A stretch of DNA of 44,020 nt from Sphingobacteriales bacterium (GTDB lineage Bacteria > Bacteroidota > Bacteroidia > Chitinophagales > Chitinophagaceae). The notes under the pieces are model-generated. The model had not been told where the DNA came from and searched no databases. It was given only the letters and a program-made list of their open reading frames with translations. Shown here one piece after another: positions 2,518 to 21,213 of the stretch. A program made the position numbers and the translations under genes. The stretch lies in NCBI GenBank assembly GCA_900299255.1, contig OMJB01000082.1:1-44020 (forward strand). The letters run 5' to 3'. Each line of letters opens with the position of its first letter. Within the stretch, counting starts at the first letter, position 1.

Positions 2518-2910
2518 ATGAATTGTTTACTGTTGGCCGCCGAGCACAATACACCCTTTAACTACTTTCCTCTGGCGCTGCAATTAGTTATTGCTGTAGG
2601 ATTTGTGGTAATTATGATGGTGGTAACTCACCTGCTGGGCCCCAAAAGAAAAACGGGTGACAAACTAATCAATTTTGAAAGTGGTATACCCTCTGTTGGT
2701 AATGCAAGGCAGCCAATGGGTATCAAATATTTTCTGGTAGCTATACTATTTGTGCTGTTTGATGTTGAAGTTATTTTCTTTTATCCTTATGCAGTCAATT
2801 TCAAATTTCTGGGTACCGAGGGTTTTCTGGAAGTAGTTTTATTTGTTGCTTTCTTTTTGTGCGGTTTTATATACATCGTTAAGAGAGGCGCACTAGACTG
2901 GGAAGAGTAG
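2518..2910 (+). CDS. nuoA: NADH-quinone oxidoreductase subunit A
   Basis: Membrane subunit of complex I, 130 residues, with three predicted transmembrane helices (about residues 17-40, 72-92 and 98-119). It helps form the junction between the membrane arm and the quinone site. The family loop between helices 1 and 2 is present (KLINFESGIPSVGNARQPMGIKYF), and helix 2 carries the conserved FDVEVIFFYPYA with its acidic residues. It is the first gene of a complete nuo operon and directly follows the candidate promoter. A terminator-like hairpin lies between it and nuoB. Confidence 0.95.
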   Translation: MNCLLLAAEHNTPFNYFPLALQLVIAVGFVVIMMVVTHLLGPKRKTGDKLINFESGIPSVGNARQPMGIKYFLVAILFVLFDVEVIFFYPYAVNFKFLGTEGFLEVVLFVAFFLCGFIYIVKRGALDWEE

Positions 2911-2960
2911 AAAAAATAAAAAGCAAATACTGCTTTCACGTTTTATGCTTTTTAATTTTT
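2911..2960 (+). terminator. Terminator-like or attenuator hairpin between nuoA and nuoB
   Basis: The A-rich arm ending AAAAAGCA (2918-2925) can pair with TGCTTTTT (2946-2953), giving nine pairs with T2917-A2954, extended past a one-base bulge by the flanking A and T runs. The same arm can instead pair with TGCTTT at 2931-2936. A T-rich tract follows to the nuoB ATG. It may weaken or process the operon transcript; it cannot be a full stop if the operon is to be expressed as one unit. Confidence 0.4.
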
Positions 2961-2982
2961 AAGTTTTAATTTTTTAGTTTTT

Positions 2983-3546
2983 ATGGCCCGTCCTGTACAG
3001 TATAATACGAAAGTGAAAATGGTGGAGATGCCCGAAGGATATTCGGGTGAGGGCTTTTTCTCTACGTCATTTGATAAGATTGTGGAATTGGGCCGTAAGA
3101 ATTCCCTGTGGCCGCTGCCATTTGCAACATCCTGCTGCGGTATTGAATTCATGGCAACAATGGGGTCACATTACGACCTGGGCCGCTTTGGCGCCGAGCG
3201 TATGGGATTCACGCCACGTCAGTGCGATGTGCTGCTGGTAGCTGGTACTATTGCCAAAAAAATGGCACCCATCCTGCGCCAGGTATACCTGCAGATGGCC
3301 GAACCCCGCTGGGTAATAGCCATTGGTGCATGTGCCAGCAGCGGAGGCATTTTTGATTCTTATTCTGTACTTCAGGGCATAGACCAGGTGATTCCGGTTG
3401 ATGTATATGTACCAGGTTGCCCGCCCAGGCCGGAAGGCATTATAGATGGTATTCTTAAACTACAGGACCTCGTAAGCACCGAGAGTTTAAGAAGAAGAAA
3501 TAACCCGGTATATAAGAGCCTGATGGAGAGTTACGGAATAGAATAA
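2983..3546 (+). CDS. nuoB: NADH-quinone oxidoreductase subunit B
   Basis: Peripheral-arm subunit of complex I, 187 residues, that carries the terminal 4Fe-4S cluster N2, which passes electrons to quinone. The ligands are visible: the tandem Cys51-Cys52 in ATSCCGIEF, Cys117 in IGACASSGG and Cys146 in VPGCPPRPEG. Soluble, no signal peptide, usual length. It follows nuoA after a 72-nt T-rich gap with a possible attenuator and precedes nuoC. Confidence 0.97.
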   Translation: MARPVQYNTKVKMVEMPEGYSGEGFFSTSFDKIVELGRKNSLWPLPFATSCCGIEFMATMGSHYDLGRFGAERMGFTPRQCDVLLVAGTIAKKMAPILRQVYLQMAEPRWVIAIGACASSGGIFDSYSVLQGIDQVIPVDVYVPGCPPRPEGIIDGILKLQDLVSTESLRRRNNPVYKSLMESYGIE

Positions 3547-3603
3547 AACCTGCGTGTTACCGGTAAATAAATGTGATTTTTCAGTATAGCCGACTAGTTA
3601 AAA

Positions 3604-4107
3604 ATGGGATTGTCCAACGAATTAATAAAACAAAAACTGACTGAAAAATTCGGTGAGCAACTCACCGGATGGGAAGAGCAATTCGGGCTGCTGACATTCA
3701 GCGCACCGGCCGAGCTTAACCTGAAAGTGGTGCAGTTTCTTTATGATGACGAAACACTGCGTTTCCGCTTTCTTACAGACCTCACCGGAGTGCATTACCC
3801 CGACAGAAAAGGAGAAGAAATCTGCGTGGTGTACCATTTGCATAATCTGATAGATAATATCCGCCTGCGTTTCAAAGTATACGTACCTTCAGAAAAACCT
3901 GATGTTTATTCACTTTCACAGCGTTTTTCAGGAGCTAACTGGATGGAGCGTGAAACCTATGATTTTTTTGGGGTAAACTTCATCGGGCACCCCAACCTTA
4001 TCCGCATACTCAACATGGATGAGATGGATTATTTCCCGATGCGGAAAGAATATGAAATGGAAGACCCTACCCGCAGAGATAAGGACAATGAGATGTTTGG
4101 ACGGTAG
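3604..4107 (+). CDS. nuoC: NADH-quinone oxidoreductase subunit C
   Basis: Peripheral-arm subunit of complex I, 167 residues (the 30-kDa subunit family), lying next to NuoD near the quinone pocket. It has no redox cofactor. Family signatures seen: FLTDLTGVHYPDRKGEEICVVYHL in the middle and the C-terminal ERETYDFFGVNFIGHPNLIRILNMDEMD. It is a separate gene here, not fused to nuoD as in E. coli. 57 nt separate it from nuoB. Confidence 0.96.
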   Translation: MGLSNELIKQKLTEKFGEQLTGWEEQFGLLTFSAPAELNLKVVQFLYDDETLRFRFLTDLTGVHYPDRKGEEICVVYHLHNLIDNIRLRFKVYVPSEKPDVYSLSQRFSGANWMERETYDFFGVNFIGHPNLIRILNMDEMDYFPMRKEYEMEDPTRRDKDNEMFGR

Positions 4108-4152
4108 GAAAGAAAAAGAATACATGACACTGAAACAGTAATAATTATTAAC

Positions 4153-4183
4153 GAGGGGAAGCCCCTTTAGGGATCCAGGGTAT
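4153..4183 (+). promoter_or_regulatory. Hairpin leader before nuoD
   Basis: AAGCCCC-TTTA-GGGATCCAGGG ends 3 nt before the nuoD ATG; CCC/GGG can pair around a TTTA loop. It shares its design with leaders before nuoF, nuoL and nuoN (AGCYCC, short loop, GGGG or GCGG, TTYRGGG). Role unknown; perhaps translation control or RNA processing. Confidence 0.5.
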
Positions 4184-5434
4184 ATGGAACTTCAACAGCA
4201 ACAACAGCAGCATATAAAACTTTCTGAGGAATCTCTTCAGAAACAGACTACAACGCTCAACCTGGGCCCTACACACCCTGCCACCCATGGGGTGTTCCAG
4301 AACATTATGGAAATAGATGGTGAGCGTGTGCTGGAAACAGTGCCAACCATTGGCTATATCCACCGGGCTTTTGAAAAAATAGCAGAGCGCAGGCCGTTTT
4401 ATCAGATCACAACCCTTACCGACCGCCTGAATTATTGCTCATCGCCTATCAACAATATGGGGTGGCACATGACTGTAGAAAAACTACTGAAAATTAATAT
4501 TCCGAAAAGGATTCAGTACCTGCGTGTTATTATTATGGAATTGGCCCGTATTGCCGACCACCTGGTGTGTAATTCGGTTATAGGCGTGGATACAGGTGCA
4601 CTTACTCCGTTTACCTATGTGTTCCAGTCGAGGGAGCATATTTATGAAATATTTGAAGAAATATGTGGCTCACGCCTTACCACCAACATTGGCAGGGTGG
4701 GCGGTTTTGAACGTAATTTCTCAGAAGCATCTTTTACAAAACTGAACAAATTCCTGACAGACTTTCCAAAGACAATGACGGAATTTGAAAACCTGCTCAA
4801 CAGGAATAAGATATTTGTTGACCGTTGCGTAGGTGCCGGCCCTATCAGTGCTGAGCGAGCACTGAATTACGGCATAACAGGCCCCAACCTCAGAGCTGCG
4901 GGGGTAGACTATGATGTAAGGGTTGCACAGCCTTACTCATCATATGAAGAATTTGATTTTAAGATACCTGTTGGCACTACGGGCGATGTATACGACCGTT
5001 TCATGGTGCGCAATGGGGAGATATGGGAAAGCCTCAGCATCATCAGGCAGGCACTTGAAAAAATTCAGAAAATAGAGAAAGAGTTTCCTGAGCAGAAGAA
5101 TATCTATTATGCCCAGGAAGCAGATCATTTCCATCTGCCACCCAAAGAGGATGTGTACACTAAAATGGAGGCGCTGATCTACCACTTCAAAATAATAATG
5201 GGCGAGATTGACGCACCGAAAGGTGAAATCTACCATGCGGTAGAAGGTGGCAACGGAGAATTGGGTTTTTACCTGATCAGTGATGGTGGCCGCTCACCAT
5301 ACAGGCTGCACTTCCGCAGGCCTTGTTTTATTTACTACCAGGCCTACCCTGAAATGGTGGAAGGAGGATTGCTGAGCGATGCAGTGGTAACACTGAGTAG
5401 TTTGAACGTGATTGCAGGAGAACTGGATGCCTAG
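4184..5434 (+). CDS. nuoD: NADH-quinone oxidoreductase subunit D
   Basis: Peripheral-arm subunit of complex I (49-kDa family), 416 residues, forming the quinone-reduction site with NuoB and related to the large subunit of NiFe hydrogenases. Seen: NLGPTHPATHGVFQ near the N-terminus, TIGYIHRAFEKIAE, ARIADHLVCN, and the C-terminal RSPYRLHFRRPCF. As expected for complex I, the hydrogenase nickel-ligand cysteines are absent. An unusual glutamine run (residues 4-9) precedes the conserved core. The start ATG directly follows one of the hairpin leaders. Confidence 0.97.
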   Translation: MELQQQQQQHIKLSEESLQKQTTTLNLGPTHPATHGVFQNIMEIDGERVLETVPTIGYIHRAFEKIAERRPFYQITTLTDRLNYCSSPINNMGWHMTVEKLLKINIPKRIQYLRVIIMELARIADHLVCNSVIGVDTGALTPFTYVFQSREHIYEIFEEICGSRLTTNIGRVGGFERNFSEASFTKLNKFLTDFPKTMTEFENLLNRNKIFVDRCVGAGPISAERALNYGITGPNLRAAGVDYDVRVAQPYSSYEEFDFKIPVGTTGDVYDRFMVRNGEIWESLSIIRQALEKIQKIEKEFPEQKNIYYAQEADHFHLPPKEDVYTKMEALIYHFKIIMGEIDAPKGEIYHAVEGGNGELGFYLISDGGRSPYRLHFRRPCFIYYQAYPEMVEGGLLSDAVVTLSSLNVIAGELDA

Positions 5435-5505
5435 AAAACGGCAGATAGTTTTGACAAAATGAACAGAAATTGGGAATTCACAGAATTCTATAAAGAACAT
5501 AGTAA

Positions 5506-6003
5506 ATGAGCGTAAAATTTTCAGACGAAAAAATGAAGGAGGTAAAAGAACTCATATCTCATTACCCAGAGGGTAAGGAGAAGAGTGCGCTGATACCTTT
5601 ACTGCATATTGCGCAGGGTGAGTTTGGTGGCTGGCTAGATGTGCCTGTTATGGATTATGTAGCTGAGCTGCTGAATATACTGCCTATAGAGGTATATGAA
5701 GTAGCTACATTCTATACTATGTTCAATACAAAGCCTGTTGGTAAATACGTGCTGGAAGTGTGCCGCACCGGACCATGTATGGTAAGCGGCTGCGACGACA
5801 TTATCAGCTATATAAAAGAAAAACTGGGAATAAACGAAGGTGAGACCACACCAGACGGGCTGTTTACGCTGAAGCCAGCTGAGTGCCTGGGTGCCTGCGG
5901 ATATGCCCCCATGATGCAGATGGGTAAAACGTACCGCGAGCATCTGACAAAAGAAAAAGTGGACAAACTGATTGAAGAACTGAGAGGAAAATCGAATAAT
6001 TAG
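5506..6003 (+). CDS. nuoE: NADH-quinone oxidoreductase subunit E
   Basis: Peripheral subunit of complex I (24-kDa family), 165 residues, carrying the 2Fe-2S cluster N1a next to the FMN subunit NuoF. The four cluster ligands are seen: Cys86 and Cys91 in CRTGPCMVSG, and Cys127 and Cys131 in ECLGACGYAP. The helical N-terminal domain (ALIPLLHIAQGEFGGW) is present. In most operons nuoF follows at once; here two non-nuo genes come between. Confidence 0.96.
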   Translation: MSVKFSDEKMKEVKELISHYPEGKEKSALIPLLHIAQGEFGGWLDVPVMDYVAELLNILPIEVYEVATFYTMFNTKPVGKYVLEVCRTGPCMVSGCDDIISYIKEKLGINEGETTPDGLFTLKPAECLGACGYAPMMQMGKTYREHLTKEKVDKLIEELRGKSNN

Positions 6004-6009
6004 AAAACA

Positions 6010-6414
6010 ATGGCTTTCGATCTGTCACTTGAATTTATTTTGTCGGGTAAACCGGAGCGGGTGATGGAGTTATTGACTGATCCGGTACTGATCAGGAAAT
6101 GGAGTGGAGAAGCAGCAGTACTGGAGGCAAAATCGGGCGGAAGATTTGAAATGTTTGATGGCTGGGTTTCAGGAGTGGTGTTGAAAACAGGGAAGCTTGA
6201 ACTATCATATACATGGAAAGCAAGCGACTGGCCGGAAGAAACAAAACCAAGTGAAGTTCATTATTTATTGAAAAAAGATGAAGCCGGTACCAAGGTGATA
6301 TTACACCACACCGGTTTCCCCAATGAGAAAGAAATGGACAGCCACAAGTCGGGATGGACAGACTTCTTTTTCGACCCGATGGAAGATTTTATTTTGATGA
6401 TTGATAAAAGCTGA
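6010..6414 (+). CDS. SRPBCC (AHSA1-like) protein inserted in the nuo operon
   Basis: A 134-residue START-like domain protein with the AHSA1 pattern: FILSGKPERVMELLTDPVLIRKWSGE, then SGGRFEMFDGWVSG, SYTWKASDWPEE, and the C-terminal HTGFPNEKEMDSHKSGWTDFF. It has no signal peptide and no redox motif. It starts 6 nt after the nuoE stop, and its stop overlaps the next ATG by one base (TGATG), so it is fully embedded in the operon. It is distinct from the ArsR-linked SRPBCC protein at 1438-1923. A function in complex I assembly or quinone handling is only a guess from position. Confidence 0.85.
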   Translation: MAFDLSLEFILSGKPERVMELLTDPVLIRKWSGEAAVLEAKSGGRFEMFDGWVSGVVLKTGKLELSYTWKASDWPEETKPSEVHYLLKKDEAGTKVILHHTGFPNEKEMDSHKSGWTDFFFDPMEDFILMIDKS

Positions 6415-6842
6415 TGAGAAATTTATTGGTCATATTGCTGCTCTTTGTAAGTTTTTGTGCCGGTGCTCAGAAAAGAGATTCGTCAGGTTTAGCTCGTGCC
6501 ATGTTTGACCTGAATAAATCACTGATCAAAAAAGATACAGCTGCGCTGAACAAACAACTGAGAGACGATGTGCGTTATTACCATTCAAACGGATGGTTAC
6601 AGGTGAAGAAAGATGTGATAGAAGATCTGTATAACGGCAAGCTTACTTATAAAGAGATCAGCGCGAAAATAGAAAGCGTGCATTTGAACGGTGATATAGG
6701 GCAGATCAGAACGGTGCTGGATGTAGATGTGTCCTTGAACGGCAAGCCGATACAACTGAAGCTGAAAGTTGTACAGGTGTGGGTGTGGAAAGAGAACAGA
6801 TGGGAATTGTATTCCAGACATAGTGAAAAAATTACAGCATAA
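6414..6842 (+). CDS. Exported NTF2-like (DUF4440-type) protein in the nuo operon
   Basis: A 142-residue protein with a clear Sec signal peptide (MRNLLVILLLFVSFCAGAQ, likely cut after AGA) and a SnoaL/NTF2-like small cone fold suggested by the pattern FDLNKSLIKKDTAALNKQL, DDVRYYHSNG, VKKDVIEDL and the C-terminal strand VQVWVWKENRWELYSRHS. Proteins of this group include ligand-binding domains and enzymes, so no reaction can be assigned. Its ATG overlaps the stop of the SRPBCC gene, suggesting coupling. The predicted export sets it apart from every peripheral nuo subunit around it. Confidence 0.8.
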   Translation: MRNLLVILLLFVSFCAGAQKRDSSGLARAMFDLNKSLIKKDTAALNKQLRDDVRYYHSNGWLQVKKDVIEDLYNGKLTYKEISAKIESVHLNGDIGQIRTVLDVDVSLNGKPIQLKLKVVQVWVWKENRWELYSRHSEKITA

Positions 6843-6854
6843 CAGTAACAATAA

Positions 6855-6878
6855 GCTCCGCTAAAGCGGTTCAGGCAT
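6855..6878 (+). promoter_or_regulatory. Hairpin leader before nuoF
   Basis: GCTCCGC-TAAA-GCGGTTCAGGC ends 2 nt before the nuoF ATG. CCGC (6858-6861) pairs with GCGG (6866-6869) around a TAAA loop. It is one of four leaders of similar design in this operon. Confidence 0.5.
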
Positions 6879-8234
6879 ATGGGTGTAAAATTATTATTAG
6901 CAAACGATGGTGTAGAGGGTATCAGGTACTACGATACTTATCGAAAGAATGGCGGATACACTACCGCAGAGAAGGCATTGAAAATGTCTCAGGCTGATAT
7001 CGTTGAAGAGGTTAAAAAGAGTGGTTTGAGGGGCCGCGGTGGCGCAGGTTTCCCTACGGGTATGAAGTGGAGTTTTCTGGCAAAACCAGAGGGCGTACCA
7101 CGTCATCTGGTATGCAATGCCGATGAATCAGAGCCAGGTACTTTCAAAGACCGCTACCTTATGGAGTTTCATCCGCATCTGTTCATAGAGGGTTTGCTCA
7201 TCAGCAGTTTTGCACTGGGCAGTAACCGTACCTATGTATATATCAGGGGTGAATATTCCTGGATACCCGATATCCTTAACCAGGCAATTGCCGAAGCAAG
7301 AAACGCAGGTTTCCTGGGCAAGAATATTCTCGGTTCTGGTTTTGATTGTGAGATATATGTACATCGCGGTGCAGGTGCTTACATATGCGGTGAGGAAACG
7401 GCACTTATTGAATCTCTGGAGGGCAAGCGCGGTAATCCCCGTATGAAACCCCCGTTCCCGGCCATTCAGGGTCTTTGGATGCGCCCAACGGTTGTAAACA
7501 ATGTAGAAACCATTGCTGCAGTTGTACCCATCATTGCCATGGGTGGAGATGAATACGCAAAGATAGGTGTGGGAAAATCTACAGGCACAAAACTGATGTC
7601 GGCCTGCGGAAACATCAATAAGCCCGGTGTTTATGAAATAGACATGACCATATCTGTTGAGGAGTTTATTTTTAGTGATGAATACTGTGGTGGCATCAAA
7701 AACGGTAAAAGGTTGAAAGCCTGCATACCCGGCGGTTCATCAGTACCGATACTGCCTGCCAACCTGCTGCTGAAAACAGCTAAGGGCGAAACACGCATGA
7801 TGAACTACGAAAGTATGTCGGACGGTGGATTTGCTACCGGTTCTATGATAGGCTCGGGAGGATTTGAAGTGCTGGACGAAGACCAGTGTATTGTAAAGCA
7901 CACTATGACTCTGGCCCGCTTCTATAATCATGAAAGCTGCGGACAATGCAGCCCGTGCCGTGAGGGCACCGGCTGGATGTACAAGATACTGAAGAACCTG
8001 GAATACGGGCACGGCAAGCTGAGTGATATAGACCTGCTTTGGGATATCCAGCGCAGGATAGAAGGTAATACTATCTGCCCGCTTGGCGATGCCGCATCGT
8101 GGCCTGTAGCCGCAGCTATACGCCATTTCCGAGACGAGTTTGAATGGCATGTTAAGAACCCTGAAGAATCACAGAAACGTAATTACGGTCTGGCACATTA
8201 TGCCGATCCTATTCATGTAGCTGCAACAGCATAA
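6879..8234 (+). CDS. nuoF: NADH-quinone oxidoreductase subunit F
   Basis: The NADH-oxidising subunit of complex I (51-kDa family), 451 residues, holding FMN and 4Fe-4S cluster N3. Seen: the FMN/NADH loop GLRGRGGAGFPTGMKW (residues 49-64), NADESEPGTFKDR, the second glycine-rich stretch RGAGAYICGEETALIESLEG (163-182), and cluster ligands Cys354, Cys357 and Cys360 in ESCGQCSPCREG with Cys400 in TICPLGDA. It is preceded by the two inserted genes and a hairpin leader, and followed by nuoG after about 26 nt. Confidence 0.97.
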   Translation: MGVKLLLANDGVEGIRYYDTYRKNGGYTTAEKALKMSQADIVEEVKKSGLRGRGGAGFPTGMKWSFLAKPEGVPRHLVCNADESEPGTFKDRYLMEFHPHLFIEGLLISSFALGSNRTYVYIRGEYSWIPDILNQAIAEARNAGFLGKNILGSGFDCEIYVHRGAGAYICGEETALIESLEGKRGNPRMKPPFPAIQGLWMRPTVVNNVETIAAVVPIIAMGGDEYAKIGVGKSTGTKLMSACGNINKPGVYEIDMTISVEEFIFSDEYCGGIKNGKRLKACIPGGSSVPILPANLLLKTAKGETRMMNYESMSDGGFATGSMIGSGGFEVLDEDQCIVKHTMTLARFYNHESCGQCSPCREGTGWMYKILKNLEYGHGKLSDIDLLWDIQRRIEGNTICPLGDAASWPVAAAIRHFRDEFEWHVKNPEESQKRNYGLAHYADPIHVAATA

Positions 8235-8260
8235 AGTAATTAGTGAATTTTGATTTAGTT

Positions 8261-9364
8261 ATGTCAGAAACACCAAAGTTTAAAGTAACCATTGATACTA
8301 TTAGCGTAGAGGTACCGGCTGGTACTACTATTCTTAATGCTGCCCGTATGATAGGCGGCGATGTAGCTCCGCCTACTATGTGCTACTACAGCAAGCTGAA
8401 GGACAGCGGCGGCAAATGCCGCACCTGCCTGGTAGAGGTGAGCAAGGGCTCTGAAAAAGATCCTCGCCCCATGCCCAAGCTGGTGGCCAGTTGCCGCACC
8501 ACCGTTATGGATGGCATGGAAGTGAAAAATATCACTTCAGAAAAAGTACTTGATGCCCGCAAAGGCGTTGTTGAGTTCCTGCTCATTAACCATCCGCTCG
8601 ACTGCCCGGTTTGTGATCAGGCCGGTGAATGTGACCTGCAGAACCTTAGCTACGAGCATGGCACGGAGGCTACCCGCTATGAATTCAAGCGTCGCACTTT
8701 TGAGAAAGAAGATATTGGTCCATATATATCTCTGCACATGAACCGTTGTATCATGTGTTTCCGTTGTGTGTTTACTGCTGATCAGCTCACCGAAAAAAGG
8801 GAACATGGTATTCTGGAGCGGGGCGATCATGCACAGATAGGTACCTACCTCAATAAGGCACTTAAAAATGATTTTATTGGGAATGTGATAGATGTGTGCC
8901 CAGTTGGTGCACTTACAGATAAAACCTTCCGTTTTAAAAACAGGGTTTGGTTTACAAAACCAGTGGACGCTCACCGCAATTGCAGTAATCCAAAATGCTG
9001 CGGCCATGTAAGGTTATGGATGCGTGGCGATGAAGTATTCCGTGTTACTGCGCGAAAAGATGAGTGGGGCGAGGTGGAAACAAGGCCTGACGGAACCCCA
9101 GGATGGATTTGCAACGAATGCAGGTTTGAGAAAAAACAAACTAAAGACTGGGTTATTGAGGGGCCAGCATTGATACCCAGAAGCAGCGTTATAGCACAGG
9201 GGCATTATGTGGGTACCAAAAAGACACCTGTACTTATTGATAAAGTGATAGGCAAGGAGCCGCAGTATCAACTGAATATTCATGATATAAGTGATGTAAA
9301 TAAACCGGAAATAGAATTATCGAAAATAGCCGGTCCGGCTCATTCAGATGATTTTAATAAGTAG
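8261..9364 (+). CDS. nuoG: NADH-quinone oxidoreductase subunit G, short form
   Basis: Iron-sulfur subunit of the NADH module, 367 residues, about 40% of the E. coli length; the C-terminal molybdopterin-oxidoreductase-like body is absent. Ligands seen: 2Fe-2S N1b (Cys41, 53, 56, 78); His111 with Cys115, 118 and 124 in HPLDCPVCDQAGEC; a third set Cys163, 166, 169 and 213; and a fourth Cys group (241, 246/247, 284, 287) in the domain that holds N7 in some species. Short NuoG forms are known in Bacteroidota. I chose the ATG at 8261 (MSETPKFKV) over the in-frame GTG at 8243 because homologous N-termini begin just before this ferredoxin strand. Confidence 0.93.
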   Translation: MSETPKFKVTIDTISVEVPAGTTILNAARMIGGDVAPPTMCYYSKLKDSGGKCRTCLVEVSKGSEKDPRPMPKLVASCRTTVMDGMEVKNITSEKVLDARKGVVEFLLINHPLDCPVCDQAGECDLQNLSYEHGTEATRYEFKRRTFEKEDIGPYISLHMNRCIMCFRCVFTADQLTEKREHGILERGDHAQIGTYLNKALKNDFIGNVIDVCPVGALTDKTFRFKNRVWFTKPVDAHRNCSNPKCCGHVRLWMRGDEVFRVTARKDEWGEVETRPDGTPGWICNECRFEKKQTKDWVIEGPALIPRSSVIAQGHYVGTKKTPVLIDKVIGKEPQYQLNIHDISDVNKPEIELSKIAGPAHSDDFNK

Positions 9365-9453
9365 AGTTGGTATTTATTTTTGAAATTTGATAAGCCCGAT
9401 TTTTGATTAGAAAAGTGAATATTTAAAACAACTAAAACTACTTTTGTACAATT

Positions 9454-10527
9454 ATGCTGTTACTTCAGATTGATACAGCGCTGATAATAGAGAAGGCTCT
9501 TCTTATCATAACCATTCTCCTTGGTTCACTGGGCATCGCCATGTATGCCACATGGGGAGAACGCAAAGTTGCAGCCATCATGCAGGATCGTATCGGCCCA
9601 AACAGGGCTGGCCCTTTTGGTTTGTTCCAGCCATTGGCCGATGGAATGAAACTCTTCTTTAAAGAAGAAATTATCCCAGACGGTTCAACCCGTTTTATTT
9701 TTATTCTTGGCCCCTGCCTGGCAATGCTTACCGCTACCATGACCAGTGCTGTTATACCGTGGGCTCCCGATTTCGTTACACCGGGCGGCCATGTATTCTC
9801 ATTTCAGGTGGCGGATATTAATATAGGTATTCTGTTTGTTTTTGGGGTTGTGAGCCTTGGTGTATACGGCGTTATGCTGGGTGGCTGGGCATCTAACAAT
9901 AAATTCTCTCTTTTAAGTAGTATCCGTGCGGCGTCTCAGGCTATTTCCTATGAGCTGGCTATGGGCATCAGCCTTATTGCACTGCTTATGATGACCGGGT
10001 CACTGAGCCTCCGTGAGATTGTGGCACAGCAGCATGGGTTCTGGAGCGATGGCTATTTTACCTGGAACTTCTTTAAGCAGCCGCTAGGGTTTATTATTTT
10101 CTTGACCTGTTCCTTCGCTGAGCTGAACCGTGCACCTTTTGACCTGCCCGAATGTGAAAGCGAATTGAACATGGGATACCATCAGGAGTATTCGTCTATG
10201 AAACTGGGCTTTTACCTTTTTTCTGAATATATCAATCTCTTTGTGAGCTCAGTTATCTTAAGCACACTGTTCTTCGGCGGTTACAATTTCCCGTTCATGG
10301 ATCAGGTAGCAGGCATGGTACACCCATTATTGTTTTCACTTATTTGCGTGATGGTGCTGCTCACAAAAGCAGTAATGATTATCCTGTTTGTAATGGCAGT
10401 GAGGTGGACATTGCCCCGTTTCCGTTATGATCAGTTAATGAAATTAGGGTGGAAATCGCTGATACCTCTGGCACTGTTTAATATGCTGGTTACAGGGGCA
10501 GTAATTCTGTGGACAATGAAAAAATAA
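9454..10527 (+). CDS. nuoH: NADH-quinone oxidoreductase subunit H
   Basis: Membrane subunit of complex I (ND1 family), 357 residues, with about eight helices; it forms the entry to the quinone chamber. Family motifs seen: GERKVAAIMQDRIGPNRAGPFGLFQPLADGMKLFFKEEIIP in the first loop (several conserved charged residues), SYELAMGISLIAL, and FAELNRAPFDLPECESELNMGYHQEYSSMKLG in the loop facing the quinone site. Usual length. It follows nuoG after 89 nt. Confidence 0.97.
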   Translation: MLLLQIDTALIIEKALLIITILLGSLGIAMYATWGERKVAAIMQDRIGPNRAGPFGLFQPLADGMKLFFKEEIIPDGSTRFIFILGPCLAMLTATMTSAVIPWAPDFVTPGGHVFSFQVADINIGILFVFGVVSLGVYGVMLGGWASNNKFSLLSSIRAASQAISYELAMGISLIALLMMTGSLSLREIVAQQHGFWSDGYFTWNFFKQPLGFIIFLTCSFAELNRAPFDLPECESELNMGYHQEYSSMKLGFYLFSEYINLFVSSVILSTLFFGGYNFPFMDQVAGMVHPLLFSLICVMVLLTKAVMIILFVMAVRWTLPRFRYDQLMKLGWKSLIPLALFNMLVTGAVILWTMKK

Positions 10528-10588
10528 TTTATTTGTTTTTACAACCGTATTAAGAGTTAATCTAGAGGTATTTCGGAAATAGAACGTA

Positions 10589-11098
10589 ATGGAAAAACTA
10601 ACTAATAAATCAGTACAGATAAACCGCACACCTTTGAATTTCATGGAGCGGGCATACCTGCCTGCACTGGCTAAGGGGCTGACTATAACATTGGGCCATG
10701 TGTTCAAAAAGACCACAACTGTTAGCTACCCTGAAGTGAAAAGGCCATTCAGCCCGGTTTTTCGCGGATTGCATATACTTAACCGCGATGAGAATGGCGC
10801 TGAAAGGTGCACTGCCTGTGGCCTGTGCGCACTAGCATGCCCGGCAGAGGCAATCACCATGGAGGCAGCAGAGCGCAAACCAGGTGAAGAGCATCTGTAC
10901 AGGGAAGAAAAATATGCAGCTAAGTATGAGATAAATATGCTTCGTTGTATTTTCTGTGGTTACTGCGAAGAAGCTTGTCCGAAGGATGCTGTTTACCTGA
11001 CTGAAACTGTGATGCCTGCAAATTATAGCCGTGATAGTTTTATTTATAAAAAAGATGACCTGTTAATTCCCGGCCCAAATAAAAAGGAAAGCAAATAA
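10589..11098 (+). CDS. nuoI: NADH-quinone oxidoreductase subunit I
   Basis: Ferredoxin-like subunit of complex I, 169 residues, carrying clusters N6a and N6b. Two complete CxxCxxCxxxC motifs are present: Cys74, 77, 80, 84 (CTACGLCALACP) and Cys120, 123, 126, 130 (CIFCGYCEEACP). An amphipathic N-terminal helix (about residues 22-40) would lie on the membrane. The next gene starts one base after its stop (TAATATG), suggesting coupling to nuoJ. Confidence 0.96.
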   Translation: MEKLTNKSVQINRTPLNFMERAYLPALAKGLTITLGHVFKKTTTVSYPEVKRPFSPVFRGLHILNRDENGAERCTACGLCALACPAEAITMEAAERKPGEEHLYREEKYAAKYEINMLRCIFCGYCEEACPKDAVYLTETVMPANYSRDSFIYKKDDLLIPGPNKKESK

Positions 11099-11099
11099 T

Positions 11100-11633
11100 A
11101 TGGAGATATACGATATTTTATTCTGGGTACTGTCTGCTGTTGCTGTAAGCTGTGCGCTGGGAGTAATCCTCAGCCGCAACCCTGTAAATAGTGTGATGTT
11201 CCTGATACTTACGTTTTTTGCCATTTCGGGGCACTATATATTAATGAATGTTCAGTTTCTGGCAATTGTAAATGTGATAGTATATGCCGGTGCCATTATG
11301 GTTCTGTTTCTGTTTGTGATTATGCTCATGAACCTCAATGCAGATGTGGAGCCCCAGAAAGGGCAGCTTGTGCAGCTGGCAGGTGTGATATCCGGCGGAA
11401 TATTATTTCTGGTTATACTGGCTGGCATCAAATCAGCTAAACCTGAGATAATGGATAAGGCATCTACCGATATAGGGTTAATCAGCAATCTGGGTAAAGT
11501 GCTTTTTACTAAATATGTATTGCCATTTGAGATCAGCAGTGTTTTATTTTTGAGTGCTATGATTGGCGCTATAGTTATAGGCAAGAAAGAAGAAACAAAA
11601 GACCCGGATGCTAAAGCAGAAAGGGTAAATTAA
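11100..11633 (+). CDS. nuoJ: NADH-quinone oxidoreductase subunit J
   Basis: Membrane subunit of complex I (ND6 family), 177 residues with about five helices. The characteristic start (ILFWVLSAVAVSCALGVILSRNPVNSVMFLILTFF) and the helix-3 segment IVYAGAIMVLFLFVIMLMNL, with the family pi-bulge region, are present. The C-terminus is hydrophilic (EETKDPDAKAERVN). Starts one base after nuoI. Confidence 0.95.
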   Translation: MEIYDILFWVLSAVAVSCALGVILSRNPVNSVMFLILTFFAISGHYILMNVQFLAIVNVIVYAGAIMVLFLFVIMLMNLNADVEPQKGQLVQLAGVISGGILFLVILAGIKSAKPEIMDKASTDIGLISNLGKVLFTKYVLPFEISSVLFLSAMIGAIVIGKKEETKDPDAKAERVN

Positions 11634-11677
11634 TAACCAGTTAGTAAAAATTACACGCGCGAGCGGAACTAAGTTAT

Positions 11678-11983
11678 ATGCCGGTAAATTCAACTCATTA
11701 TCTGTTTTTGAGCCTGCTGTTATTTTCTATTGGAATAATGGGGGCTTTGATGCGCAGAAATGCCATCATCATTTTTATGTGCATTGAGCTGATGCTCAAT
11801 GCCGTGAATTTATTGCTCGTAGCATTTTCAAAACTTTATGGCGATGCTGATGCACAGTTATTTGTGTTTTTCATTATGGTAGTGGCGGCGGCAGAGGTGG
11901 CAGTGGGTTTGGCGATAATCGTTATGATGTACCGAAGGGTCTACTCAGTAGACATAAATATTTTAAACAGGTTAAAACATTAA
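11678..11983 (+). CDS. nuoK: NADH-quinone oxidoreductase subunit K
   Basis: Small membrane subunit of complex I (ND4L family), 101 residues with three helices. The conserved membrane glutamates of the proton path are seen in MCIELMLNAVNLLLVAF (helix 2) and AAAEVAVGLAIIVMMYR (helix 3). Usual length for the family. It lies 44 nt after nuoJ. Confidence 0.96.
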   Translation: MPVNSTHYLFLSLLLFSIGIMGALMRRNAIIIFMCIELMLNAVNLLLVAFSKLYGDADAQLFVFFIMVVAAAEVAVGLAIIVMMYRRVYSVDINILNRLKH

Positions 11984-12043
11984 TATACCCTGCCTTAATG
12001 CTCAGGCATGCAGGTGGGATTGTTCACGAATTTTAATTTAATA

Positions 12044-12064
12044 GCCCCGTTCGGGGTTCGGAGT
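12044..12064 (+). promoter_or_regulatory. Hairpin leader before nuoL
   Basis: GCCCCG-TTC-GGGGTTCGGAG ends 1 nt before the ATG at 12065. CCCC (12045-12048) pairs with GGGG around a short GTTC loop. Same design as the leaders before nuoD, nuoF and nuoN; its position supports the ATG at 12065 as the true nuoL start. Confidence 0.5.
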
Positions 12065-13966
12065 ATGGCTAATTTTGTTTACTTAGTTCCACTTTTCCCA
12101 TTGATCGGTTTTTTGATCAATGGCCTGTTATGGAAAAAAATGCCGAAATCACTGGGTGGTATCATCGGTTCTCTCGCTATTCTGGCATCGTTTGTTGTAT
12201 CCCTCGGCATTTTCTTTGAAGTCAGGACTGCATCGTTTCAGGGACCACTGATCGTAAACATGTTTGAATTTATCCATTCGGGTAAGCTATTGATTCCTTT
12301 TGCTTTTCAGGTTGATGCTCTTTCTTCTTTGTTCCTGCTTATTATTACGGGTATCGGCTTCCTGATCCATGTGTACTCTACATCATACATGGGCCACGAC
12401 GATGGCATGGTGAAATACTTTGCCTACCTCAACCTGTTCGTTTTCTCCATGCTGTTGCTAGTATTAGGTGCCAATTACCTGATTATGTTCATAGGCTGGG
12501 AAGGCGTGGGCCTTTGCTCTTACCTGCTTATCGGGTTCTGGTTCAAAAACCGTGATTATACCAATGCCGCCAAGAAAGCTTTTGTAATGAACCGTATTGG
12601 CGACCTGGGTTTTCTGGTGGGCATGCTGCTGATACTGTTTAATTATGGCACACTGTCATATCAGGACTTCTTCGGCCAGTTGCATGCCGGTAGTGCTTCT
12701 GCTTCGTCATCCTGCATGTTCAACTGGATTGCATTTTGCCTGTTCATAGGCGCTATGGGTAAAAGTGCCCAGATTCCGTTGCACACATGGCTCCCCGATG
12801 CCATGGCGGGTCCTACTCCTGTTTCGGCATTGATTCATGCCGCTACCATGGTTACTGCCGGTATATATATGATTGCCCGTAGCAATGCGTTGTATGACCT
12901 GGCACCTGTGGCGCTCAGCATTGTAGCGGCAGTTGGCCTAGCGACAGCATTATTAGGCGCTACAATTGCATTGTACCAAAACGATATTAAAAAAGTGCTG
13001 GCATATTCAACACTCAGTCAGCTGGGTTTCATGTTTCTGGCGTTGGGTGTTGGTGCATACACTACCGGGGTATTCCATGTTATGACACACGCTTTCTTCA
13101 AAGCGCTGTTGTTCCTGGGAGCAGGTTCCGTAATTCACGCTATGGGCGGGGAGCAGGATATCAGGTTCATGGGCGGCCTGAGGAAAAAATTACCGGTAAC
13201 CTATATCACCTTTTTGATTGGTGTGCTGGCTATCTCCGGTTTTCCATTCACTTCTGGTTTTGTTTCAAAAGACGAGATTCTTCTTGCTGTATATGAGTAC
13301 AATAAAATCTACTTTGCTATTGCGGCATTTGTAGCCATACTCACAGCTATTTATATGTTCCGCCTGCTGATGCTGGTATTTATGGGTGGTTTCAGAGGCA
13401 CCCACGATCAGGAACACCATTTGCATGAATCGCCGGCTGCCATAACTATACCGCTTGTGATACTTGCAATACTGTCTTTGGCCGGAGGCTGGATACAATT
13501 GCCGCACCTATTTGGTGGACATGATTATCTCAATCAATTCCTGGCTGGGGCTAAGATTCCGGCAATTGTGCACGAAGGCCCAAATGTTGCCACACGTGAA
13601 CTTACCTTACTAGTTGCTACTTGCGTTGGTTTGTTGATAATTTTTATCGCAACACGCAAATTGTTCGCAGTATCTCAGTTCGAAGGTAAGTACACTGGAT
13701 TCAAAAATGTACTGGCTAATAAGTGGTACATAGATGAGTTGTACAACTCTGTTGTTGTTAACCCCATTGCTGCTATGAGCCGGATGATGGAGAAGTTTGT
13801 AGAGAAGAGCGGTATTGACGGCATTGTAAATGGTGTTGGCAAAACAGTAAAGTGGGGCGGAGACAGGCTGCGTTTACTGCAGAGCGGCCAGGTTGGTTTT
13901 TATATTTTTATTATGGTACTGGGCATGATCATATTGTTCGCGCTTAGTTTTTTTTGGATTAAATAA
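12065..13966 (+). CDS. nuoL: NADH-quinone oxidoreductase subunit L
   Basis: Distal antiporter-like membrane subunit of complex I (ND5 family), 633 residues with about 16 helices, including the long C-terminal lateral helix that couples the pump modules. Seen: the proton-channel segments IMFIGWEGVGLCSYLLIGFW, GKSAQIPLHTWLPDAMAGPTPVSALIHAATMV, YQNDIKKVLAYSTLSQLGFM and THAFFKALLFLGAGSVIHA, with their conserved Glu, Lys and His residues. An in-frame ATG at 12008 would add 19 residues; I prefer 12065 because MANFVYLVPLFPL is the standard family N-terminus and a hairpin leader directly precedes it. Confidence 0.95.
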   Translation: MANFVYLVPLFPLIGFLINGLLWKKMPKSLGGIIGSLAILASFVVSLGIFFEVRTASFQGPLIVNMFEFIHSGKLLIPFAFQVDALSSLFLLIITGIGFLIHVYSTSYMGHDDGMVKYFAYLNLFVFSMLLLVLGANYLIMFIGWEGVGLCSYLLIGFWFKNRDYTNAAKKAFVMNRIGDLGFLVGMLLILFNYGTLSYQDFFGQLHAGSASASSSCMFNWIAFCLFIGAMGKSAQIPLHTWLPDAMAGPTPVSALIHAATMVTAGIYMIARSNALYDLAPVALSIVAAVGLATALLGATIALYQNDIKKVLAYSTLSQLGFMFLALGVGAYTTGVFHVMTHAFFKALLFLGAGSVIHAMGGEQDIRFMGGLRKKLPVTYITFLIGVLAISGFPFTSGFVSKDEILLAVYEYNKIYFAIAAFVAILTAIYMFRLLMLVFMGGFRGTHDQEHHLHESPAAITIPLVILAILSLAGGWIQLPHLFGGHDYLNQFLAGAKIPAIVHEGPNVATRELTLLVATCVGLLIIFIATRKLFAVSQFEGKYTGFKNVLANKWYIDELYNSVVVNPIAAMSRMMEKFVEKSGIDGIVNGVGKTVKWGGDRLRLLQSGQVGFYIFIMVLGMIILFALSFFWIK

Positions 13967-13972
13967 ATGTTT

Positions 13973-14003
13973 CCGGGGTTGTTATTTATGCTCCGGCTTT
14001 TTA
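13973..14003 (+). terminator. Weak terminator-like hairpin between nuoL and nuoM
   Basis: CCGGGG (13973-13978) can pair with CTCCGG (13991-13996, one G-T pair), followed by CTTTTTAT. It lies inside the operon, so at most it would attenuate or mark an RNA end. A 14-bp palindrome AAAGTGTACACTTT follows at 14016-14029. Confidence 0.35.
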
Positions 14004-14063
14004 TAATGTTATTTGAAAGTGTACACTTTTTAAGTTTCTACTTTTAACAATTGAAATGACAAT

Positions 14064-15512
14064 ATGATATTAATATTACTGATAGCCATTCCATTGTTTG
14101 CCGGCATATTTTCTTTTGGTATAAAAGGAGATGGTGCTAAAGTGCTTGGTTTGATTAGCTCTATGCTCACATTGGTAGCAGCCGCATATGTGAGCGGGGC
14201 CAACTACATTGCTCCGGTTTCTTTCTCCCAGCCCTGGATACCCCTGCTTGGTACACAGTTCAGCCTGATGGGCGATGGCATGAGTAGTATGCTCTGCCTG
14301 CTCACCGGCATAGTGGTGCTGGTAGTAATGATAACAAATGTCAGCAAAGAAGTTGAAAAACCGGGATCGTTTTACGGATTGCTTCTATTGTCTCAGGCTG
14401 GCCTTATGGGCGTTTTTCTGGCATACGATGCGCTGGTATTTTATGTATTCTGGGAACTGGCATTGATACCTGTTTACTTTTTGTGCTCTCAATGGGGTGG
14501 CGAAAAACGCATTGCTGTAACATTCAAGTTCTTTATTTACACGTTTGTGGGCAGCCTTATGCTGCTGGCCGGCCTTATTTACCTGTCATTGCAAACACCC
14601 GGGCTCAGCAGCTATGCCTGGGCTGATATTGTTCGGGCAGGAGCATCGCTCCCACCTGAGAAGCAGCAGTGGCTTTTCTGGTTGGTATTTATTGCGTTTG
14701 CAATCAAAATGCCCATTTTCCCATTCCATACCTGGCAGCCTGATACATACGAACAATCGCCCACTCCGGTTACAATTATTCTGAGTGCGCTGATGGTAAA
14801 AATGGGTATGTACGCAGTACTCCGCTGGCTGGTACCGGTACTGCCATTTGGTGTTGCATACTGGGCAGATACTGTGGTCGTTTTATCGGTTATTGGTATC
14901 GTATACGCCTCCTGTATTGCTATCGTGCAGACAGATATAAAAAGACTCATTGCCTATTCGTCAATAGCACACATGGGTCTTATGGCCGCGGCGGCGTTTA
15001 CCCATTCTCAGGTAGGCACACATGGTATCATGGTACAGATGTTCAATCATGGAATCAATATTACCGGCATGTGGGTAATGGTCAGCATGATAGAACAGCG
15101 TTACGGCACCCGTGATATGACAAAGCTGGGCGGCATGGCTACTGCTGCTCCGCAAATGGCCATTGCCCTGCTCATCATTGCTTTTGCCAATATTGCACTT
15201 CCGCTTACAAACGGGTTCATTGGCGAATTCATGTTGTTCAATGGAATTTTCCGCGCAGACTCGGCAGGGCATATTACAATTATGGTAGTTGCCGGCCTGG
15301 GTATTATTCTGGGTGCGGTTTATACTTTGAATATGGTACAGAAAACTGCATGGGGGGAAGAAGTAAAAATGAACAGTGGAAAAGACCTGAGTACCAATGA
15401 ATATTTAGGATTGGCCATAATTATCAGCATTATCATATTCCTGGGTGTTTATCCAAAACCTCTTTTGGATCTCACTTCGGGTATTGCGGGTGTGATAACA
15501 GCCGGCCACTAA
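14064..15512 (+). CDS. nuoM: NADH-quinone oxidoreductase subunit M
   Basis: Antiporter-like membrane subunit of complex I (ND4 family), 482 residues with about 14 helices. Seen: the helix-5 segment FYVFWELALIPVYFLCSQWGG with the conserved Glu, KMPIFPFHTWQPDTYEQSPTPVTIILSALMVKMG, QTDIKRLIAYSSIAHMGLM and FNHGINITGMWVM. The ATG at 14064 begins the first helix at once. It follows nuoL after 97 nt containing a weak hairpin and a palindrome. Confidence 0.96.
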   Translation: MILILLIAIPLFAGIFSFGIKGDGAKVLGLISSMLTLVAAAYVSGANYIAPVSFSQPWIPLLGTQFSLMGDGMSSMLCLLTGIVVLVVMITNVSKEVEKPGSFYGLLLLSQAGLMGVFLAYDALVFYVFWELALIPVYFLCSQWGGEKRIAVTFKFFIYTFVGSLMLLAGLIYLSLQTPGLSSYAWADIVRAGASLPPEKQQWLFWLVFIAFAIKMPIFPFHTWQPDTYEQSPTPVTIILSALMVKMGMYAVLRWLVPVLPFGVAYWADTVVVLSVIGIVYASCIAIVQTDIKRLIAYSSIAHMGLMAAAAFTHSQVGTHGIMVQMFNHGINITGMWVMVSMIEQRYGTRDMTKLGGMATAAPQMAIALLIIAFANIALPLTNGFIGEFMLFNGIFRADSAGHITIMVVAGLGIILGAVYTLNMVQKTAWGEEVKMNSGKDLSTNEYLGLAIIISIIIFLGVYPKPLLDLTSGIAGVITAGH

Positions 15513-15562
15513 CGGTGCGCAGAGATTGATTATTTGTTAATAACCCAGACGACTAAATAAGC

Positions 15563-15590
15563 GGGAGCCCGTTAGGGGTTTGGGGTTGGA
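15563..15590 (+). promoter_or_regulatory. Hairpin leader before nuoN
   Basis: GGGAGCCC-GTTA-GGGGTTTGGGG lies about 14 nt before the nuoN ATG at 15600. CCC can pair with GGG on either side of the GTTA loop, and GGGAGCCC contains an alternative pairing. It belongs to the group seen before nuoD, nuoF and nuoL. Confidence 0.5.
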
Positions 15591-15599
15591 AATTATATT

Positions 15600-16982
15600 A
15601 TGAAAGCAATTATTGCTACAACGGTTTTTGGTATAATAATGATGTTTGCCGGGATTCTGGTGAATGACAGGAAGAATATTGGTTCAATAGCAGCACTGCT
15701 GTTTGCCGCACTCCTGGGTGTTTCCATCTGGGATCTGGTGACAACACCTGCAAATGCCCCGCAGTTATTATTCAATGATATGCTGCGCATAGAGCATTAT
15801 TCTTTATGGTTCAACACCATTATGACAGGTTGCTCATTGTTGTACGTACTACTGCTAGGTAAAGAGATACAAAAAGTAGGAAAGTATGTTGGCGAGTATT
15901 TTGCACTTATATTTTTCATTTTGTGCGGCTTGTACCTGCTGTCGTCCTATAATAATCTGCTTATGCTGTTTATTGGCATTGAGATACTTTCCATACCTCA
16001 GTACATTCTTGCAGGCAGTGACAAACGTAATCTGAAGAGCAGTGAGGCTTCTCTGAAGTATTTTCTGATGGGGGCATTCTCAACCGGCATATTATTAATG
16101 GGTATTACTTTGCTGTATGGTGCTGCACGTACTTTCAATATAATGGAGATGGTGAGTATGCTGCACGCTGACGCGCTAAACCCGCTTGCAATTGGGGGCA
16201 TCTTATTCCTCATGGTTGCACTTTCGTTCAAGGTTTCTGCGGCACCCATGCATATGTGGACCCCCGACGTATACGATGGCTCGCCTACTGCCTTTACGGC
16301 ATTCATGGCTACGATTGTAAAATCAGCAGCGTTCTTTGCATTTCTACGTCTATTCCAGGTGTCATTCAATGCGCTGAGCGGCCATTGGGTTTTTATCCTC
16401 GCTGTTATTACTGCAGCTACATTGCTGGTAGGTAATGTTACAGCTGTTTTCCAGCAAAGCGTGAAAAGAATGCTTGCCTATTCTTCGATTGCGCAGGCAG
16501 GCTTTATGTTATTTGCAGTGCTGGCTGTTAATGCGGTTGCATGGCAGGGTATCATTATTTATGCACTGGCATACAGTGTTGCTACTATTGGCATATTTGC
16601 AGTGCTGATAAAATTGAAAGACTACACTTATGATGGTTTCAACGGCCTGGCCAAGAAAGAACCTTTTCTTGCATTTGTTACCACAGTATGTTTGTTTTCG
16701 CTGGCAGGTATACCACTTACCGGTGGTTTTATGGCCAAGTACTTTGTGCTGCTGGCAGTAGTGCAGCAGGGGCAGTTTATGTGGCTGGTAATTTTTGCAC
16801 TACTAATGGCTGCAATAAGTGTTTACTATTATTTCAGGGTCATTATAGCTATGTATTTTAAGCAAGGCACTCCTGAACTCATGTCCCCCGTTACTTCAGG
16901 TGACAAATTCTGGATGGTAGTTACATGTATTCTGGTTATTCTGCTGGGGGTAGTGCCGCAGTTGTTCCTGAGTAATATTTAG
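15600..16982 (+). CDS. nuoN: NADH-quinone oxidoreductase subunit N
   Basis: Antiporter-like membrane subunit of complex I (ND2 family), 460 residues with about 14 helices. Seen: LLMLFIGIEILSIPQYILAG with the conserved Glu, SSEASLKYFLMGAFSTGILLMG, FKVSAAPMHMWTPDVYDGSPTAFTAFMATIVKSAAFFAF, and QQSVKRMLAYSSIAQAGFM. It is the last of the 14 subunits. No strong terminator follows; a small lipoprotein gene begins 77 nt downstream. Confidence 0.96.
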   Translation: MKAIIATTVFGIIMMFAGILVNDRKNIGSIAALLFAALLGVSIWDLVTTPANAPQLLFNDMLRIEHYSLWFNTIMTGCSLLYVLLLGKEIQKVGKYVGEYFALIFFILCGLYLLSSYNNLLMLFIGIEILSIPQYILAGSDKRNLKSSEASLKYFLMGAFSTGILLMGITLLYGAARTFNIMEMVSMLHADALNPLAIGGILFLMVALSFKVSAAPMHMWTPDVYDGSPTAFTAFMATIVKSAAFFAFLRLFQVSFNALSGHWVFILAVITAATLLVGNVTAVFQQSVKRMLAYSSIAQAGFMLFAVLAVNAVAWQGIIIYALAYSVATIGIFAVLIKLKDYTYDGFNGLAKKEPFLAFVTTVCLFSLAGIPLTGGFMAKYFVLLAVVQQGQFMWLVIFALLMAAISVYYYFRVIIAMYFKQGTPELMSPVTSGDKFWMVVTCILVILLGVVPQLFLSNI

Positions 16983-21037: not shown

Positions 21038-21152
21038 TTCAGGCCATTTGATAAATAAGGTGGGAGTAAGCCCATTAGCTGTTTTGTGGTGCAGCTGGCG
21101 CTGTACTGTTTTATTGGGCTTATTATAGTATTTTTACATTGTTTTGAGGGTA

Positions 21153-21160: not shown

Positions 21161-21170
21161 CTGTTTCCGA

Positions 21171-21205
21171 CTTATAACTTATAACTTACAACTTAAGACT
21201 CACGA
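21171..21205 (+). repeat. Five tandem heptamers (CTYAYRA-type) before manC
   Basis: Units CTTATAA, CTTATAA, CTTACAA, CTTAAGA and CTCACGA run without a break and end 8 nt before the ATG at 21214. The same type of unit, in the same direction relative to its gene, occurs at 469-496. Confidence 0.8.
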
Positions 21206-21213
21206 CTACAAAA

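Follow-up and report, generated by a model that had tools for sequence, protein, structure and literature searches.

Four nuo leader hairpins of a Sphingobacteriales bacterium are probably copies of a dispersed repeat found at gene edges

REP and REPIN sequences are intergenic palindromes of 20-40 nucleotides (nt) which occur in many copies near gene ends, sometimes supply the stop codon and form inverted pairs, according to the parts of the two sources used here (PMC3733652, PMC6006769). Direct repeats of the heptamer TAACTGA occur in Beggiatoaceae, Cyanobacteria and some Bacteroidetes; in the portion of the paper drawn on here a role in translation is proposed for them, and they lie in one genome mostly a few nt before start codons and in one Bacteroidetes set reversed just after the stop (PMC4679880). 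The same portion tells of E. coli rpsA, whose leader lacks a strong Shine-Dalgarno sequence and in which hairpins help initiation. The GUCCY-hairpin motif (Weinberg et al. 2010) is entered for Bacteroidetes and Proteobacteria, with no Rfam accession in the table consulted (PMC2864571). Here we analyse a stretch of 44,020 nt, called the window below, from a Sphingobacteriales bacterium (GenBank assembly GCA_900299255.1, contig OMJB01000082.1), whose nuoA-nuoN operon for complex I (2518..16982, + strand) carries a short hairpin in the leaders of nuoD, nuoF, nuoL and nuoN. We find that the four hairpins are probably old copies of one dispersed short repeat of Bacteroidota. The repeat itself is, in our judgement, most plausibly a mobile, REP-like hairpin that settles at the edges of genes and in some cases has been retained as a 5' stem-loop.

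The repeat resembles the REP/RAYT system in being a small palindrome with many intergenic copies, inverted pairs and closeness to gene ends. Unlike that system, its consensus has no GTAG/GTGG or CGTC tag at the hairpin foot (aligned copies, judged by eye), no consensus copy lies beside the 31 Y1 genes searched, and the hairpin is followed by an unpaired second G-tract as a tail, while about half of the edge copies are at start codons, with a fixed polarity. Like the TAACTGA repeats, as far as that portion of the paper describes them, the element ends a few nt from a start or is reversed after a stop, but it is a single hairpin unit instead of tandem heptamers. The name of the GUCCY-hairpin fits the GUCCC of one repeat variant, a likeness of name and table row. 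E. coli rpsA, as told in the secondary source, concerns one gene with three hairpins and not a repeat. Because form and spread are REP-like, without the tags or (as searched) transposase neighbours, and the position is TAACTGA-like, we file the element by analogy as a variant among short interspersed repeats. The family seems to be unnamed. Rfam gave 0 matches in the window, and around nuoL the best E-value was 2.9, far under the gathering score; in open-access text (subscription papers lay outside the search), core sequence strings returned one unrelated E. coli paper and descriptions of the repeat returned no paper.

The accepted copies share the consensus AGGGGAAGCCCCTTTAGGGGTTTGGGGTTTA (written by eye), a repeat of about 30-36 nt in which a C-tract, a 4-nt loop and a G-tract are followed by a tail with a second G-tract (AAG-CCCC-TTTA-GGGG-TTTGGGGT). 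In the window, the copy before nuoD (4154..4183, + strand; 34.4 bits) holds the hairpin GCCCCTTTAGGGATCCAGGG at 4161-4180, with the C-tract at 4162-4165, the G-tract at 4170-4172 and the G-rich tail up to 4180; by direct reading the ATG at 4184 follows after 3 nt, and relatives have hairpin leaders at the same place. The nuoF copy (6848..6879, + strand; 22.0 bits) is diverged, with the stem CCGC/GCGG, which is retained with an altered loop in the relative G011; its hairpin GCTCCGCTAAAGCGGTTCAGG (6855-6875) is likewise read 3 nt before the ATG at 6879. Only 1 nt, again read directly, separates the hairpin GCCCCGTTCGGGGTTCGGAG (12044-12063) of the nuoL copy (12037..12066, + strand; 29.1 bits; stem GCCCC/GGGGT, with compensatory stems in relatives) from the ATG at 12065, a start which agrees with the relatives while the mechanically called open reading frame (ORF) opens further upstream. 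The nuoN copy (15559..15588, + strand; 29.0 bits) includes the hairpin GCCCGTTAGGGGTTTGGGG at 15567-15585, its G-rich tail stops 14 nt before the ATG at 15600, and the consensus form stands at the same place in G011. The gaps of 3, 3, 1 and 14 nt confirm an earlier note on this DNA, which had placed the four hairpins 1-14 nt before the ATG.

When the window was scanned with a covariance model built from 11 aligned copies, the four nuo sites among them, these four ranked first with 22.0-34.4 bits and the next best place reached 10.8. A weaker relative that had been suspected at 21055-21090 did not hold up, with only 7.6 bits and E = 6.1. When a pattern was derived from the genome's other copies and up to 3 mismatches were allowed, it matched the window at nuoN only (0 of 100 shuffles). 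Folding of the single sequences is weak, with z of -1.9 for nuoF, -1.35 for nuoL and -1.46 for nuoN; the nuoD sequence is equalled or surpassed by 193 of 200 shuffles, its C-arm faces competition from a 5' G-tract, and its stem contains one C.A pair. Related hairpins stand in several of the same nuo leaders of relatives.

It is in these relatives that the pairing can be followed. Across the nuoL leaders of six distinct relatives, the 6-pair stem is kept at 94% of cells and slid versions at no more than 50%, and three pairs are changed on both sides, a level reached by 0 of 500 shuffles; five of eleven leaders were omitted from this comparison because their hairpins align out of register (window, G011, G043, G046 and G002). 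Eleven genomes entered the comparison of nuoD leaders, five of 16 being omitted for a longer or shifted tail; two pairs are compensatory, the covariation score exceeds that of every one of 500 shuffles, and 10 of the 11 leaders retain a G.U pair. At the sequence level, then, the stem in the nuoL and nuoD leaders of relatives is kept by compensatory changes. The earlier idea that RNA structure matters gains support for these two leaders, as the homologous operons do contain compensatory changes (three pairs in nuoL, two in nuoD); that pairing is kept while the bases vary likewise stands for the relatives, and fails for the nuoD stem of the window with its C.A pair. The guaA leaders, compared without that of G011, carry CCCC/GGGG in the window genome and G016, CCGC/GCGG in G004, CCGGC/GCCGG in G002 and no such stem in G043. 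For stem differences of this kind, a substitution within one copy and the replacement by a sister repeat cannot always be told apart.

Searching the covariance model over the own genome and related genomes, a check that had been proposed for the hairpins, brought up further copies elsewhere in the genome and across the genus. At E = 10 or below the own genome gives 28 matches; 15 were accepted and the others set aside (L023, L025, L027 and L031, which belong to another repeat, and nine weak hits); with the best 150 of 685 candidates scored, further copies are possible. A match at E <= 0.01 was found in 21 of the 40 genomes searched, the own one included, which are 21 of 25 in the genus and none of the 15 from the order's other families; the leaders compared from such families (L342-L349) show no element by eye. 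Copies per genome range from 0 to at least 82 in the 25 genomes of the genus, again with the own one, these counts being lower bounds with 150 candidates scored each. Beyond the genus, an exact 22-letter pattern occurs at no fewer than 120 loci in named genomes, and among the matches listed 120 of 120 are Bacteroidota, from six named orders, with 41 lacking an order; cultivable carriers include Parafilimonas terrae and a Pedobacter strain. Spread by phages was considered and set aside: with the exact pattern in only 13 viral contigs, they are unlikely to be its chief vehicle. Searching plasmids with the guaA leader gave no match.

The surprising part is the closeness to gene edges with a fixed polarity. 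In the genus, the G-rich end lies -4 to +20 nt from a start on the same strand or a stop on the opposite strand in 82 of 96 copies, versus 531 of 4000 random intergenic sites, and the C-rich end is at an edge in 6 of 96. By set, edge copies make up 15 of 15 in the own genome (8 at starts, 7 at stops), 15 of 18 in the samples of G021 and G016, 39 of 42 in nuo loci (34 at starts, 5 at stops) and 13 of 21 among the best copies of relatives; the rows used were 18 of 19 for the samples (one clipped by the stretch end), 42 of 43 for the nuo loci (one partial) and 21 of 23 for the relatives (two duplicates), the G016 stretches were chosen from contigs already known to carry hits, and ORFs were called mechanically, with some starts wrong. 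Taken together, the own, sample and relatives sets place 22 copies at stops and 21 at starts, the latter including five in the two nuo operons of the own genome. One polarity covers both orientations: the G-rich tail points toward the gene, so that a forward copy runs up to the start codon and a reversed one stands right behind the stop. Distances peak at the edge itself, where typical junctions are GGGGTATG, GGGGTTTATG and TAACCCC, and many forward copies end 0-3 nt before the ATG. The 13 rejected own hits have 1 at a start and 12 elsewhere, and all 28 own hits have 16 at edges. Plotting distances to start codons, another proposed check, thus gives a divided answer: forward copies do pile up at the ATG, but many copies are reversed behind stops.

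Complex I genes are frequent hosts. In 20 relatives, the nuo loci contain 43 matches over 356 kb, versus 19 in 791 kb of samples, at E <= 0.1 each in its own search and with part of the samples from hit-bearing contigs. A second nuo operon of the own genome (contig C56, L322, about 9606 down to 820), 25-50% identical to the first and with no match to nuoE, nuoF or nuoG in that stretch, carries one copy reversed after nuoA and another in forward orientation ahead of nuoB. The two operons hold 6 of the 15 accepted own copies, four of the six having been built into the model. A copy also precedes nuoK in three other taxa, namely Parafilimonas terrae, a Taibaiella sp. and a groundwater Sphingobacteriales bacterium, and the starts of genes for a thioesterase, a GH3 protein, ScpB, ActB and IspG have a copy in two records each (names from N-termini and not from a family search, some records possibly being of the window's genus). 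Many nuo leaders of relatives have no repeat. On the tree, the hairpin state changes 2-9 times per gene, with 5-9 changes at nuoC, nuoD, nuoF and nuoN, counts which are probably too high because the automatic rule overlooks visible copies (e.g. nuoD of G011).

A small mobile repeat that spread into leaders was one of three options raised for the hairpins at the outset, and it has become the best supported, by near-identical copies, numbers from none to 82 or more per genome, presence and absence between close relatives, and copies on the stop side. When six own copies were compared with G011, whose NuoL is 95% identical, three were shared and three absent; one of the absent sites is occupied in the more distant G043, and absence in G011 could equally be loss. 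Inverted pairs within 150 nt (38-147 nt apart) have their tails outward in 7 of 7 among the loci examined. The repeat would spread by some trans-acting activity which handles one strand as a hairpin, to judge from the conserved G.T pair, which only one strand can form; the edge copies would be either targeted there or survivors. A nearly identical palindrome, GCCTGCCGAAGCATTTGCGCAGGCAG, is nested in the repeat loop at different genes of two genomes (L004 at 1645; L365, minus strand, 1527).

A mobiliser of the known kind would make the repeat a classical REP moved by a RAYT (TnpA-REP) transposase. We consider this improbable, although the short intergenic hairpin, the many copies and the inverted pairs 38-147 nt apart would suit it and Y1_Tnp genes are present in 33 of 35 genus genomes searched. 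The consensus lacks the GTAG or CGTC tag, one genome with no Y1_Tnp match has 4 copies, another with a single weak match has 49, and the six weak matches at the 31 Y1_Tnp loci score 11.5-18.6 bits. In the own contig C46 (L009, 1000-2400), a RAYT-like Y1_Tnp gene is flanked by AAGTC..GACTT palindromes of its own, which are unlike the repeat as judged by eye. Intrinsic terminators or attenuators, which short G+C-rich stems between operon genes might suggest, are hardly credible and were rejected, as a T-run is missing after the consensus stem on both strands and the 15 terminator-like sites between 4000 and 16000 include none of the four hairpins. Bacteroidota mostly do without Shine-Dalgarno sequences, and the statement that the hairpin leader is not one is roughly right, except that forward copies pair with the anti-Shine-Dalgarno better than most leaders (mean -5.7 kcal/mol in 55 forward copies versus -1.25 in 701 genes, with an assumed anti-Shine-Dalgarno sequence). 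This pairing would favour the view that the G-rich tails serve as weak Shine-Dalgarno sequences which the hairpin covers, a very improbable reading: the reversed copies would be left unexplained, and Bacteroidia ribosomes hide the anti-Shine-Dalgarno and need an extended Shine-Dalgarno, as in rpsU, in the part of the source used (PMC9976891).

That the hairpin is a dedicated cis-acting initiation element for genes inside operons, to which the ribosome or a protein binds and which is only seemingly repetitive, is unlikely but should be taken seriously, since many forward copies lie 0-3 nt before the ATG, the same genes recur across records (nuoK in three taxa, the five others in two records each) and the stems change in a compensatory way. 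Such an element would not be expected to stand reversed behind stops, where 22 of the 43 edge copies from the own, sample and relatives sets lie, nor to vary from 0 to at least 82 copies inside one genus, nor to be missing from many nuo leaders of relatives. Its context is also opposite to the A-rich rule of the phylum: A stands at -3 in 15% of the 55 forward copies versus 38% of the 701 genes, and at -12 in 7% versus 43%. In Flavobacterium, the start region is less structured and A-rich positions help, as stated in the part of the paper used here (PMC6847099). A general rule of hairpins at starts was tried and rejected, because real and shuffled leaders fold alike: leaders with a minimum free energy of -8 or below number 3 of 240 versus 4.0 in shuffles, 5 of 246 versus 5.7 and 10 of 296 versus 6.3. 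For G016 trailers, stable folds outnumber those of shuffles (22 of 296 versus 10.3). G+C-rich stems of 396 genes have 29 arm ends 0-39 nt before the ATG versus 6 after one shuffle, an excess which is spread over 5-40 nt upstream without a peak at the start. An enrichment before start codons is therefore not clear for hairpins by folding energy, while some excess of G+C-rich stems is there; and a translation-start element is not supported as a general explanation, as leaders fold like shuffles and many copies mark gene ends.

The reading as a REP-like mobile repeat has its own difficulties. The covariation comes from small, chosen sets of 6 and 11 sequences; one of five measures is ordinary for nuoL (78 of 500 shuffles) and two of five whole-structure measures are ordinary for nuoD (159 and 500 of 500 shuffles). 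Exact copies across the phylum are at starts in 32 cases, at stops in 29 and elsewhere in 66, so that only 61 of 127 are at an edge, in a set which includes some same-genus records, has no matched control and leaves 9 further copies too close to a contig edge to classify. The copies at L043 and L048 are upstream of TAnnTTTG, which we take to be a promoter-like motif, and would hence lie outside the mRNA. Target-site duplications could not be read by eye since the flanks have diverged, and at the 31 Y1_Tnp loci (up to 1.5 kb of flanks; 105 Y1 matches counted) no consensus copy adjoins. These points all weigh against a mobile repeat with a kept leader structure. A bolder form of it is distinctly doubtful: a phylum-wide mobile 5' leader, in which a selfish hairpin would insert precisely at gene edges and replace the native initiation region with hairpin and G-tail, without loss of expression in central genes such as those of complex I, while reversed copies would cap gene ends.

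Other repeats share these regions. An alternative leader right before the ATG consists of T-rich repeats such as (TTTTGAC)n and is seen at nuoF, nuoN, nuoM and nuoC of same-genus genomes (L127-L146), possibly also in the window at 21165-21213; these leaders and the hairpin alternate at the same nuo genes. Tandem 7-mers (1 mismatch or none) occur at -42..-1 versus -87..-46 in 19 versus 2 of 215 own genes (8 when shuffled) and in 42 versus 28 of 480 genes of G021/G016 (20 when shuffled). With their tandem 7-mers, the T-rich leaders are akin to the TAACTGA repeats as described in the portion of that paper used here. The four own hits set aside as another repeat (L023, L025, L027 and L031, on contigs C24, C40, C116 and C25) represent a second dispersed palindrome family, roughly GGCTCCTTTAGGAGTC..AGGCTTTGTAGT and then a ACCCCATCGGGGTGCAAC hairpin, and are not at a gene edge under the same rule. 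Between nuo genes of relatives stand other hairpins, of the type TAA-CCCCCGGCCCCCTGAAGGGGGAGTGCCGG, which follow right after stops (for example after nuoB in L130 and L134) and resemble a sister family built on the same plan. Between nuoE and nuoF, the window has two extra genes (6010-6842) for an AHSA1-domain protein and a DUF4440 protein; the former is present in all 25 relatives whose nuo stretch spans that spot, and the latter varies.

In conclusion, central respiratory genes of this bacterium have a G-rich hairpin in a region for which the phylum has an A-rich rule and which in Flavobacterium is less structured, and in some nuo leaders the repeat may be part of gene expression. If insertion is targeted to this position, something would recognise gene edges; if selection accounts for the position, working leaders would come from a mobile repeat. 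Should the bolder form of a phylum-wide mobile leader be true, the repeat would rewrite translation starts as a mobile part, and the genes might thereby come to respond to a ribosome subpopulation or an RNA-binding protein.

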